Position numbers and translations under genes: made by a program
In this document: positions 53,451 to 64,000 of the stretch, piece by piece
Numbering within the stretch: position 1 is the stretch's first letter
How the letters are laid out: each line of letters opens with the position of its first letter
Notes under the pieces: model-generated
The model's input: only the letters and a program-made list of their open reading frames with translations
Told to the model about the DNA's origin: nothing
Databases searched by the model: none
From: Nocardioides panacis
Lineage (GTDB): Bacteria > Actinomycetota > Actinomycetes > Propionibacteriales > Nocardioidaceae
DNA: 64,000 bases
Assembly (NCBI RefSeq): GCF_019039255.1
Contig: NZ_CP077062.1
Span: 3,658,001-3,722,000, forward strand
Direction of reading: 5' to 3'

Positions 53451-55990
53451 GTGTCTGTCGACGCTGACGCAGCAGGAGAACGCCTCCTGGCGGAGAATCT
53501 GGCTGCCCTGCTGTCGGCCGGCAGCGACACCACGGACGCGTCACCCGAGGCCTCCACGCCGAGTGCGGCCCTGCGCCTCATCGAGGCCCTCGACGCGTTG
53601 CCCGATGCGCTGATGGTCCTCGACGCCCACGGGATCGTGACGTGGGCGAGCTCGGCGACCTCCGAGGTCCTGGGCTGGTCCCCGGACGAGCTCGTGGGGC
53701 GGTCGATCGCCGTCGTGGCGCTGGAGGAGAACGCCGAACACCAGCAGCAGGTGCTGGAGGAGATGCGACGGACCGGCACGGCTGTCACCTTCTCGGCCCA
53801 ACGGCGACGTGGCGACGGCGAGGTCATCGAGGTCTCGGTGTCGATGGCGCCGCTCCGCGACTCCACGACCGGCGTGTCCCTCGGCAGCTGCGCCTCGGTC
53901 CGCAGAACGGCGCCGCAGGTCCGGCTGCAGACCCAGCTGGCGCAGCAGGACTCGATCAGCGCGGCACTGAGCCGTCGCTCCTCCGACGTCGCCTTGATCG
54001 CCAAACCGGACACCGAGATCACGTTCATCTCACCCTCGATCCTCGACGTGATGGGCTACACCCCCGAGGAGCTCGTGGGCGCGAAGGGCCTGGGGCTCGT
54101 CCACCCGGACGACCTGCCCGGGGTGGAAGCCTTCGTGGGTCGAGTGGTCTCATCCCCGGGCGCGGTCGAGCGCATGACCTTCCGGGTCACCAACGCGGCA
54201 GGTGAGTGGCGCTGGATCGAGGAGACGCTGACCAACTGCTTCGAGGTTCCGGGTGTCCAGGGACTCGTCGCCAACGTCCGCGACGTGACCAACGAGGTCG
54301 AGGCACGTGCTGCACTCACGGCGTCCGAGCGCCGGTACCGCACCATCGTCGAGACCGCCCAGGAAGGTGTGCTCGTGCTCGACCGCGACTCACGCGTCCT
54401 GTTCGCCAACCGCAAGGCAGCAGATCTCCTCGGGCACGCACGAAGCAAGCTCTTCCGTCGTCAGCTCACCGAGCTCGTCGACCAGACGACCACCGAGGAG
54501 ATCCGGCGAAGAATCGGCTCCCGCGCAGACAGGGGGCATGAACGTTTCGAGGTCACCTATCCGCATCCGGACGGGGGCAACCGGATCTTCGAGGTCGCCG
54601 CCTCCCCGATCTCCCTGGACGCCGAGGGCGCCACCGGTTCCCTGACGATGATCTCCGACGTCACCGACGCGCGGCGCATCGAGACGGAGCTGCAGCACCG
54701 CGCTCTGCACGACGCCCTCACCGGACTGCCCAACCGGGCGTTGTTCACCGACCGGCTCTCGATGGCGCTGTCCCGGCAGCAGCAGGAGCCGGACCATCCG
54801 AGCGTCGCAGTGCTCTCCCTCGACGTGGACGGCTTCAAGCTCATCAACGACGTCCACGGGCACGAGTTCGGCGACGCGATCCTGGTCGAGGTCGCCCACC
54901 GGCTGCGCAGCGCCTCCGGACCGGCGGACACCGTCGCTCGCATCGGGGGGCGACGAGTTCTTGGTGGTCGCCGAGGGAGTCGGGGTCGACGGGGCCCTGG
55001 CCCTCGCGGACCACCTGCGCAGGTCCTTGCTCGAACCGGTCGTCGCGTTCGGAACCACCCTCTACGTGGACGCCAGTGTCGGCATCGCCGTGGGTCCCCA
55101 ACAGTCGCCGTCCTCGCTGCTGAGGTCGGCTGACGACGCGATGCACCAGGCCAAGGCGCAAGGACGCGGTCGCGTGCAGGTGTACGACGTCGCGAGCGGC
55201 ACCGACAACGGACGCAAGCTCCAGGTGTCCATCGCGTTGCGCGAAGCCCTCGACGCCGACCGCATCACGCTGGGCTACCAGCCCGTCGTCGACCTGACGC
55301 ACGGCGGCGTCGTCGGGGTGGAGGCCTTGCTGCGCTGGGAGCACCCCGACCTCGGCCCCGTCCCGCCACCGGAGGTCGTCGCGGCCGCCCACGCCATCGG
55401 TCTCGCGGAGCGGCTCGACCTGTGCGTCCTGCGGCGGGCCTGCACCGACATGGCCCGGATGCGAGACCGTGGGATCGGCACGGACATCCACTTGGCTGTG
55501 AACCTCAGCGCGCAGAGTATCGAGGGCACCCGACTCCCCCCAGATGGTGTCCGACACGTCCCGCCTGGCCGGGTGGCCCTTGGGTCAGCTGACCCTCGAG
55601 GTCACCGAAGGCGTGCTCATGAGTGACACAGGTGCGGCCGCCGCCGTCCTGGCACGACTTCGCGAGCTCGACGTGTCCGTCGCGATCGACGACTTCGGCA
55701 CCGGGTACAGCTCGCTGGCCTACCTCAAGCGACTGCCCGTCGCCACCCTCAAGGTCGATCGGTCCTTCGTCGAGCAGGTGCCGGGTGACCCCGAGTCGTG
55801 TGCCATCGCGCGCTCGATCACCGATCTGGCCCGAGCACTGTCGCTGACCACCGTGGCGGAGGGTATCGAGACCCAGGCGCAAGCCGACTACATGCGCCGT
55901 CTGGGGTGCACGCGTGGTCAGGGGTTCCTGTGGAGCCCCGCCGTCCCGCCGCTGGAGCTCGAGGACCTGCTGCTCGCCTGGCCTGGCTAG
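53451..55990 (+). CDS. PAS-GGDEF-EAL cyclic-di-GMP enzyme, two frameshifts
   Basis: From GTG 53451. Removing one base at 54945-54950 (six G) and one at 55536-55541 (six C) gives 845 residues. PAS 1 is about residues 42-140 (ALPDALMVLDAHGIVTWASS), PAS 2 about 175-290 (SPSILDVMGYTPEELVGAKG), PAS 3 about 295-410 (AQEGVLVLDRDSRVLFANRK). GGDEF follows (LHDALTGLPNRALFTDRLSM; restored VARIGGDEFLVVAEG), then EAL (GVEALLRWEHPDLG; VAIDDFGTGYSSLAYLKRLP; LTTVAEGIETQAQAD). Both active-site motifs are intact, so it could make and break cyclic-di-GMP under PAS control. No membrane segment is seen. Both breaks are probably sequence errors. Confidence 0.87.
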
Positions 55991-60937: not shown

Positions 60938-62041
60938 TCACACCGGTGACCCCGAGATGACGACGCCTTGCAGCAACGCTTCCTGGGGCTCTCGCAGCTT
61001 GACGAACTGCAGGCCCACCGCTGCCCCGCTCTCCTCGACACGGCACCAGCCGACGCGGGCCCGGAGAACAACCAGCGTGCCGTTCACGTTCAGCGTGACG
61101 TGAGCTGACGTCCCGGTGACCGGCAGGGACTCCGGCGGCAGGTCCGGTGCCAGGTCGCACCTGACGCCCTGCATGCTGAGGTTGGCCGTGGTGCACGCGA
61201 CGTCGTGACCAGGCCATTGGAGCCGGGCGCGGGAGACGAACACGACTCGCTGACTCAGGCGCCGGTCGAAGATCACGACCCGGGTGCTCATCGTTCCCGG
61301 GTCCGCCTGTGGGGTGCGGTCCCGTCCGGGGAGCCCGACCGGTTCCGCGACGGGGGCAGGACGGGAGCGGTCCGCTGCTCCCCCGCCATGCGCTTGCGGC
61401 ACGGCTGGCTGCTCCGCTTTGTCCTCACCCAGCTCGGGTGCGCCCGCATCCCGGGCGTCGTGATCCGTGGACTGCGCCGCCGGATCCTCGATCTCCGGGG
61501 AGTCGTCTCGCTCCTGCTCCGGCGACTCGTCCTCGACGCGAGGGCTCTCGGGCGCGCGGCTGCCCGGGACCTCGCGTCGACGGCGCAGGGCCCGGAGGAC
61601 GAGCAGTCCGATCCCATGGATGGCAGCGATCAGGGCCACAGCCAGCGCGGTCCCACTGATCGTCGTGGCTCGGGCAGGTGTGCCGACCGATTGGGCCCGC
61701 GGGGCGACGTGGTGGGGCCCGGCCGACACTGACTCGGGCCGCCGAGCAAGCTGATCCGGACCGCGCTGCGTGTCGGCAACCTCGCTCGTCGTCTGGGCCG
61801 GCCGGCCGAGCTCGAACTGGTCGCCGGAGAGCTCGTTCCAGATCATCGCTGACGACAGGAGAACGAGCTCGACGACCAGCAAGGCGGCGGCGCCGTACGC
61901 GGACGCCAGAGACCGCAGCCACGACTCTCGTCGCGTCCGAGCGCGGGGACCGGTGTGGGCGAGCTCCGACCGCGGGGAGCGCCCACTTCGCACGACGGGG
62001 ACCGGTGGCAGGAGGAGGCGCCAGGCCAGGTTGTGCCTCAT
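60938..62041 (-). CDS. Membrane protein with C-terminal PilZ domain
   Basis: 367 residues. Two membrane helices (about 48-68 and 129-150) enclose an extracytoplasmic loop. A long acidic, Pro/Glu-rich cytoplasmic linker (about 157-250) follows, then a PilZ domain. The cyclic-di-GMP-binding pattern is present: Arg-x3-Arg at Arg261-Arg265 (RLSQR), then NLSMQG at residues 287-292 (Asn/Asp-x-Ser-x2-Gly), and VLRARVGWCRVEESGAAVGL at the end. It should sense cyclic-di-GMP at the membrane. It lies 98 bases downstream of a GGDEF-EAL gene on the same strand, which may supply or remove the signal. Confidence 0.82.
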   Translation of the reverse strand: MRHNLAWRLLLPPVPVVRSGRSPRSELAHTGPRARTRRESWLRSLASAYGAAALLVVELVLLSSAMIWNELSGDQFELGRPAQTTSEVADTQRGPDQLARRPESVSAGPHHVAPRAQSVGTPARATTISGTALAVALIAAIHGIGLLVLRALRRRREVPGSRAPESPRVEDESPEQERDDSPEIEDPAAQSTDHDARDAGAPELGEDKAEQPAVPQAHGGGAADRSRPAPVAEPVGLPGRDRTPQADPGTMSTRVVIFDRRLSQRVVFVSRARLQWPGHDVACTTANLSMQGVRCDLAPDLPPESLPVTGTSAHVTLNVNGTLVVLRARVGWCRVEESGAAVGLQFVKLREPQEALLQGVVISGSPV

Positions 62042-62139: not shown

Positions 62140-64000
62140 TCATCTGGCGGTCCGCTTCCAGAGGTCCGGGTAGGCGTGGTCGGCGATGACGGAGGCCACG
62201 GAGCTGGGATGCCACCGCGTTCCCCGTGGCGTGCGGTAGTCCTGCGAGTTGAGTGCGGCGGCAATGGTGCGCAGGGACGCCCCTTCCCGGTGCAGGCGAA
62301 GGAGCAGCATCAGGCCGTGCTCCCGGGTCGCACGAGATCCCGCGGCACGTGCTGGCGTGTCCGCGCGGGCGGGGGCCTGCACGTCGAACTGCTCGCCCGA
62401 CGAGGACAGGACCTGGCTCAGGTCTGGAAGACTCAGCGGCTTGCTCCAGAGGTAGCCCTGGGCGGCGTGACAGTCGAGGCGCTGCAGCAGGTCGAGCTGC
62501 TCGTTGGTCTCGACCCCTTCCGCGATGGCCAGCACACCCATCGCCCGGCAGAGGTCGACGACGCTGGCGCAGATCGCGAGATCGTCGGCCTCGGTGGTGA
62601 CATTCCCCACGAAGCGGCGATCGATCTTGAGTCGAGCGACCGGCAGCGCCTGGAGGCGGGACAAGCCGCTGTAGCCGGTGCCGAAGTCGTCCAGGGAGAC
62701 GCTGAAGCCCTTCGCCACGATGCCCTGGAGGATGGCCGCCGCTTCCTCGGGATCACCGATGACGGCGGTCTCGGTCACCTCGAGAGCCACGCACGTGGCC
62801 GGCAGCCCGGACATCCAGACGGCCTCGTCCACGGCAGCCTGGAGATCCCCCTGGGTGAGGTGCAGGGCCGAGATGTTGACGGACACGTACACGTCCTCGG
62901 CGACCAGGTCGAGGGTTCGCAGCCGAGCGAGGTCGGCGGTGGCCCGCTGCAGGACCCACCGGTCGAGCTGACAGGCGAGGCCGCACTGCTCGGCGACCGA
63001 GACGAAGACCTCGGGGGAGATCGAGCCCTTGTCCGGGTGGCGCCACCGGGCGAGCGCTTCCACGCCGAGGAGACGGCCGGTGCTCAGCTCGACGATGGGC
63101 TGGTAGTGCAGCTCGAGAACGTCTTGGTCCAAGGCCTTCGCGAGGTCGACCGACAGCTCGAACCTCGCGCGCGCTTCTCCGGTGCGACCGGGGTCGAACA
63201 CCTCGACGTTGCCCGCGCCGCGGCGCTTGGCGGCATGCATCGCGGCCCCCGCAGCTCCCAACAGCTCGGTGGTCGCACAGTCGTCGGAGGAGGTCGCGAC
63301 CCCTCCGCTCACCGTGATCCGCACCTCATGGCCCTGCACGTCGAACGGTTCCCGAAGAGCCGTCATCACGCGTTCGGCCAGCTCCATGCAGTCGTCGGCG
63401 GGCACGTTCTCGGTGAGGACCACGAACTCGTCCCCTCCGCCGCGCGCGACCGTCTCCCCCGGGCGGGCGCAGCGCTGGACACGTTTCGCGAGCTGCACGA
63501 GAAGCTCATCCCCGGCCGCGTGCCCGAACGACTCGTTGACGAGGGCGAAGCCGTCCACGTCGAAGGCCATCACGGTCACGGTCGCCGCGGCGTCGCCCTG
63601 GTGCCGCTCGACCGCCTGCGAGATCCGGTCATGGAGCAACGTGCGGTTGGCGAGACCGGTGAGCTCGTCGTGCAGGGCCCGCCCGCGCAGCACAGCTTCG
63701 CTGTGCTTCATCTCGGTGATGTCGGAGAGCATGGTGAGTCGTGCGACGTAGGCGCCGGTGGCGTCCGTGAGGGGGCTGCTGGTGGCCCGGAACCATCGCT
63801 CCCGCCCGTCCGGGTGGGGGTAACGGAGCTCGTACTCCTCCGTGCCCTGGAACTCAGCGTCCCCCAGACGGGGCAGCAGCGCACTTCCCTCGTCCGGGCC
63901 GAACAGATCGGTGGGACCGCGGGTGTAGAGCTCCTCGAAGGTGCAACCGGTCATGTCCGCCACCTTCTGGTTGACGTAGGTCGTCCGGCCCTGCGGGCTG
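62140..64000 (-). CDS. PAS-GGDEF-EAL protein with recombinase-like C-terminal tail (partial)
   Basis: The N-terminus lies beyond the window; the frame is open to base 64000. A PAS domain (TYVNQKVADMTGCTFEELYT) leads into GGDEF (LHDELTGLANRTLLHDRISQ; ETVARGGGDEFVVLTENV) and EAL (GVEALARWRHPDKG; SLDDFGTGYSGLSRLQALPV; LAIAEGVETNEQLDLL). Both catalytic signatures look intact. After the EAL domain comes a linker and a segment of about 50 residues (62140-62320) with HREGASLRTIAAALNSQDYR and TPRGTRWHPSSVASVIA, which resembles the Recombinase domain of large serine recombinases. Such a tail could bind DNA. No resolvase catalytic domain is present. Confidence 0.85.
   Translation of the reverse strand, partial: SPQGRTTYVNQKVADMTGCTFEELYTRGPTDLFGPDEGSALLPRLGDAEFQGTEEYELRYPHPDGRERWFRATSSPLTDATGAYVARLTMLSDITEMKHSEAVLRGRALHDELTGLANRTLLHDRISQAVERHQGDAAATVTVMAFDVDGFALVNESFGHAAGDELLVQLAKRVQRCARPGETVARGGGDEFVVLTENVPADDCMELAERVMTALREPFDVQGHEVRITVSGGVATSSDDCATTELLGAAGAAMHAAKRRGAGNVEVFDPGRTGEARARFELSVDLAKALDQDVLELHYQPIVELSTGRLLGVEALARWRHPDKGSISPEVFVSVAEQCGLACQLDRWVLQRATADLARLRTLDLVAEDVYVSVNISALHLTQGDLQAAVDEAVWMSGLPATCVALEVTETAVIGDPEEAAAILQGIVAKGFSVSLDDFGTGYSGLSRLQALPVARLKIDRRFVGNVTTEADDLAICASVVDLCRAMGVLAIAEGVETNEQLDLLQRLDCHAAQGYLWSKPLSLPDLSQVLSSSGEQFDVQAPARADTPARAAGSRATREHGLMLLLRLHREGASLRTIAAALNSQDYRTPRGTRWHPSSVASVIADHAYPDLWKRTAR

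Follow-up and report, generated by a model that had tools for sequence, protein, structure and literature searches.

Enzymes that join an EAL domain, the phosphodiesterase domain acting on c-di-GMP, to a helix-turn-helix (HTH) are already known, and the few such fusions that we found described are proteobacterial. PdeL (YahA) of Escherichia coli is a trigger phosphodiesterase: c-di-GMP favours dimer formation by its EAL domain, and the HTH joined to that domain works on a promoter (PMC5052742). VieA of Vibrio cholerae has the order REC-EAL-HTH, with an active EAL domain, and its DNA binding has been proposed only (PMC4352251). FimK of Klebsiella pneumoniae also carries an HTH and an EAL domain in one protein, and its HTH is DNA-binding (PMC9487511).

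The window, a 64,000-nucleotide stretch of the genome of Nocardioides panacis, contains most of a gene for a related arrangement. Its product, like PdeL, combines an active-type EAL domain and an HTH in one polypeptide, so that c-di-GMP-promoted EAL dimerization could set DNA binding (PMC5052742), and, as in VieA, the HTH is C-terminal to the EAL domain (PMC4352251). The differences lie in the input and in the kind of HTH. In PdeL the HTH is LuxR-type, N-terminal and of an unrelated family, and there is neither PAS nor GGDEF; VieA has a response-regulator input instead of PAS-GGDEF, and its HTH is not described as recombinase type (PMC4352251); the FimK HTH is N-terminal, with no sensory PAS or GGDEF described for that protein. 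The HTH of the window protein is instead of the same length, and follows the same pattern (G-x-S-L-x-x-I-A-x-x-L-N ... W-H), as that of the small serine recombinases (resolvase/invertase type, 225-290 aa) and of the Recombinase domain (PF07508) of the large ones. Unlike these recombinases, the protein has no recombinase catalytic domain, long helix E or zinc ribbon, and its HTH is attached to a signalling enzyme. The large-serine-recombinase domain contains a resolvase-like HTH core, of which helix H in A118 integrase contacts 3 bp through the major groove (PMC3783163). Since so few bases are contacted, the tail by itself may not suffice for specificity.

Gene and domain organization

The earlier note on this DNA had described 62140-64000 as a GGDEF-EAL protein with a C-terminal segment of Recombinase pattern and no resolvase catalytic domain; coordinates and domains both agree with the open reading frame (ORF) and with Pfam. 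The features are as follows.

60938..62041, minus strand: PilZ-domain protein (Pfam), candidate c-di-GMP receptor, next gene downstream
62140..64000, minus strand: PAS-GGDEF-EAL-HTH protein, C-terminal 619 codons (ORF and Pfam); the gene runs past the window end
63712..64000, minus strand: third PAS domain (Pfam), cut by the window end; two further PAS domains lie outside the window
63214..63678, minus strand: GGDEF domain with an unbroken GGDEF motif; RPGE stands at the RxxD inhibitory site
62440..63147, minus strand: EAL phosphodiesterase domain with a complete catalytic signature (EAL, N, E, DD, K, E, Q)
62335..62439, minus strand: variable linker of 35 residues
62152..62334, minus strand: recombinase-type HTH tail of ∼61 residues (RATREHGL...DLWK), from the tail profile match and AlphaFold2 helices
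62170..62289, minus strand: core matching PF07508 positions 15/16-54 of 102 (Pfam)

The minus-strand stop is at window position 62140 and the ORF starts at G000:C1:3723028 (L003:5141-8029), so that the window covers the C-terminal two thirds of the protein. From the first TTG the protein would be 962 aa long; translation more plausibly begins at the ATG of MTTPRV, ∼170 bases inside the ORF, which gives ∼906 aa. The Pfam order in the full protein is three PAS domains, GGDEF, EAL (235 bits) and, at the extreme end, PF07508. No match to the resolvase catalytic domain (PF00239) was found in a Pfam scan of all 962 aa.

The PilZ-domain protein has a long low-complexity region ahead of its PilZ domain. 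Elsewhere in the window (55180-55980, plus strand), an EAL gene is split across two frames near 55530-55550 at a C run, and is thus either a pseudogene or a sequencing error.

Identity of the tail

PF07508 matches residues 915-953 with 24.5 bits in the Pfam scan and 27.6 bits in a whole-genome search, above its curated cut-off of 21.1 bits; several, though not all, of the tail homologues also exceed the cut-off. HTH_62 ('recombinase-like helix-turn-helix') is a second, weaker Pfam match. The alignment spans profile positions 16-54 of 102; the beta-strands and following helices of the profile are not covered, and the protein stops ∼10 residues later. The segment in which the earlier note saw the pattern of the Recombinase domain is thus the HTH core of that domain, the remainder of its 102 positions being missing.

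The profile search and the structure prediction that the note had proposed both bear out an HTH. AlphaFold2, given a 35-row alignment of the tail, predicted a confident three-helix HTH (helices 4-22, 27-36 and 49-60; mean pLDDT 84.6, helices 91-97), and in a model of EAL plus tail the helices reappear with good confidence past a low-confidence linker. In a Foldseek search with the tail model, chains of Bxb1 recombinase rank first, with a weak score (E 0.77). By VIA, 47 residues of the tail align at 1.7 A (Z 4.3); the recombinase matches have Z 4.3-5.0, and a terminase HTH scores higher (Z 7.0). The tail resembles solved structures weakly, as any small HTH does, and since the VIA score is no better than for unrelated HTHs, structure alone cannot settle the kinship of the tail; sequence does. 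A PDB sequence search with the tail profile gave chance-level matches only.

Aligned by hhalign with the C-termini of small serine recombinases, the EAL tails matched at 99.4% (E 2.6e-21), and among the plasmid matches listed for the tail nearly all are annotated as resolvases or recombinases. In a tree of tails, which has few alignment columns, all 39 recombinase HTHs fall on one side of one branch (93% support), and this fits a single origin of the EAL tails. Comparison of sequences confirmed the tail as a serine-recombinase-type HTH; outside EAL proteins, its nearest kin are the HTHs with which small serine recombinases end. The note's kinship with large serine recombinases was right as to the type of motif and wrong as to the nearest relatives, which are the small resolvase/invertase-type enzymes.

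Other sources were considered and rejected. The large serine recombinase that this genome encodes (L001, C1:934 kb) is an ordinary member of its kind, and the tail is far nearer to EAL tails elsewhere than to any recombinase. No match to the tail was found in 50,697 phage records, and the protein has no PADLOC match as an anti-phage defence protein.

Recurrence and phylogeny

The combination had been called unusual. It is instead a recurrent architecture in Actinomycetota, with 54 distinct EAL-tail proteins in total (the window protein included), the tail starting 23-45 residues after the EAL domain. It occurs in 18 of the 394 sampled genomes of the class, under eight family codes; most carriers are uncultured Frankiales, and one is an isolate, Pengzhenrongella frigida HLT2-17 (L154). 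Pfam scans of the ORFs gave the architectures (PAS)n-GGDEF-EAL-tail, GAF-EAL-tail and EAL-tail. Within a genome the tail is a minority feature of EAL proteins, found with 18-19 of 123 EAL matches in seven other genomes and with one of ∼25 in the window genome.

A further scan, with the pattern GASLxTIAAA, covered ∼85,000 species; it was seeded with a 9-row subset because the 29-tail alignment was too diverse for the purpose. (Row 5 of the nine has TIAAALN for the true TVAAALN, which touches the seeding pattern only.) The 36 loci obtained comprise 34 EAL fusions, one resolvase (Ca. Eremiobacterota) and one fragment, and almost all lie in metagenome-assembled genomes labelled Frankiales or Frankiaceae, P. 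frigida HLT2-17 again being the addition.

Adjacent pairs of tail-bearing EAL genes occur at two loci in two genomes (L072, G127:C40; L085, G150:C2); one pair lies in tandem, the other on opposite strands. Two further small proteins, with frames of 171 and 271 aa, each consist of two copies of this recombinase-type HTH with no recognised catalytic domain (L063:4310-4822, plus strand; L069:3853-4665, minus strand).

In a tree built from 89 EAL domains, whose tail-less rows were taken as the best-scoring ones and not at random, the tail state needs 7 changes, compared with 28 for shuffled labels. The window EAL domain has as its sister that of a paralogue lying 20 kb away, which lacks the tail (97% support). 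Because both lie inside a mostly tail-bearing clade, the paralogue most simply lost its tail. This paralogue (L047:6880-9553, minus strand; G000:C1 about 3741.9-3744.6 kb) is 56% identical to the window protein and its frame is broken near L047:8500-8600; an AraC-type gene lies upstream of both genes. Among 197 genomes of the window's family, a strong tail match was found in the window genome only. The ORFs of the other matches are mostly recombinase-sized, and the two that were read (L006, L008) are recombinases. No tail was found in six congeners.

Conservation and neighbourhood

In pairwise comparisons, tail identity keeps pace with EAL identity almost throughout the range of divergence (tail/EAL from 0.42/0.37 to 0.68/0.78), whilst the linker stays at 0.18-0.46; in one example, tail, EAL and linker are at 0.47, 0.45 and 0.22. 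Collecting proteins by the similarity of their tails biases the set towards conserved tails, but this does not remove the difference from the linker. GASLxTIAAA is invariant within the scan set because it was the search pattern; outside it, W47, G44, N35, V52 and A53 of the tail are also conserved there. Seven EAL residues (E36, E129, D159, D160, K180, E219 and Q236) are invariant in 31 proteins, and the catalytic residues overall vary little or not at all. Although the window protein has an intact GGDEF motif, only 18 of 44 tail proteins do, and the motif is often degenerate, which suggests that the function common to the family is phosphodiesterase activity with c-di-GMP sensing. The window protein itself is most likely a net phosphodiesterase.

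Among 91 immediate neighbours of tail genes, no family recurred in more than 6 members and PilZ was not among the recurrent families, and no excess of a common palindrome or dyad over shuffles was found upstream of 48 tail genes.

Possible function of the tail

Our preferred reading, to which we give a probability of roughly 0.55, is that the PAS-GGDEF-EAL protein acts as a DNA-bound regulator that reads and degrades c-di-GMP and has a recombinase-derived HTH as its output. By sequence and predicted structure, the protein resembles a PdeL-like trigger phosphodiesterase in having both an HTH and the signature of an active EAL domain on a single chain. PAS input and c-di-GMP would favour EAL dimerization, which would pair two HTHs on an inverted site and give a DNA-bound regulator in the manner of PdeL, possibly also of VieA. 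The tail probably binds DNA, and in its favour 89% of tails have a positive net charge; that the protein regulates transcription under the control of c-di-GMP is a more tentative proposal, at somewhat below even odds. Against the regulator stand the failure to find an upstream dyad or a conserved neighbour, and the lack of a tail in the nearest paralogue and the six congeners.

Alternatively, the tail might bind DNA purely as an anchor. The phosphodiesterase would then sit on the nucleoid, or at particular loci, and break down c-di-GMP there, and the protein itself would regulate no promoter. We consider this unlikely, as we know of no c-di-GMP pool localized to chromosomal DNA. The small size of the HTH, its attachment through a flexible, variable linker of 23-45 residues and the few bases contacted by a single recombinase-type HTH (PMC3783163) would suit such anchoring, whereas PdeL, the best-studied HTH-EAL precedent, acts on gene expression (PMC5052742). 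It is also rather improbable that the HTH was recruited for protein-protein contact, in dimerization or regulation of the EAL domain, and has lost DNA binding. HTH folds are frequently reused in protein contacts, and the tail is only moderately positive (mean net charge +2.15); however, recombinase C-termini are similarly charged (mean +3.1), and the EAL-tail family as a whole retains the recombinase pattern, with its turn and the W-H that opens the third helix. An accidental in-frame fusion or functionless relic could explain why the congeners and the nearby paralogue do without a tail, but in 54 proteins it is retained, in one and the same position and with EAL-like conservation, and it is strongly clustered on the EAL tree; recurrence and conservation together rule this out as a serious candidate.

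Implications

Returning to the c-di-GMP-reading regulator, a wider possibility, which we put forward with less confidence than the reading of the single protein, is that Actinobacteria domesticated a serine-recombinase HTH once, early in an EAL lineage. The HTH would then have been passed on, as an output module, to enzymes of the PAS-GGDEF-EAL, GAF-EAL and EAL-only types. The result would be a large family of one-component regulators, so far undescribed, whose c-di-GMP turnover determines how far a promoter is occupied. In the open-access literature searched we found no description of a fusion of EAL with a recombinase-type HTH, nor of a serine-recombinase-descended HTH in this role recurring across actinobacterial families. 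In actinobacteria, several paralogues within a genome can share this predicted DNA-binding output of mobile-element origin. The known link between c-di-GMP and transcription in actinobacteria runs through separate receptors such as BldD; if the proposal is true, the tail proteins would be direct links, and the cultured carrier P. frigida HLT2-17 makes the idea directly testable.
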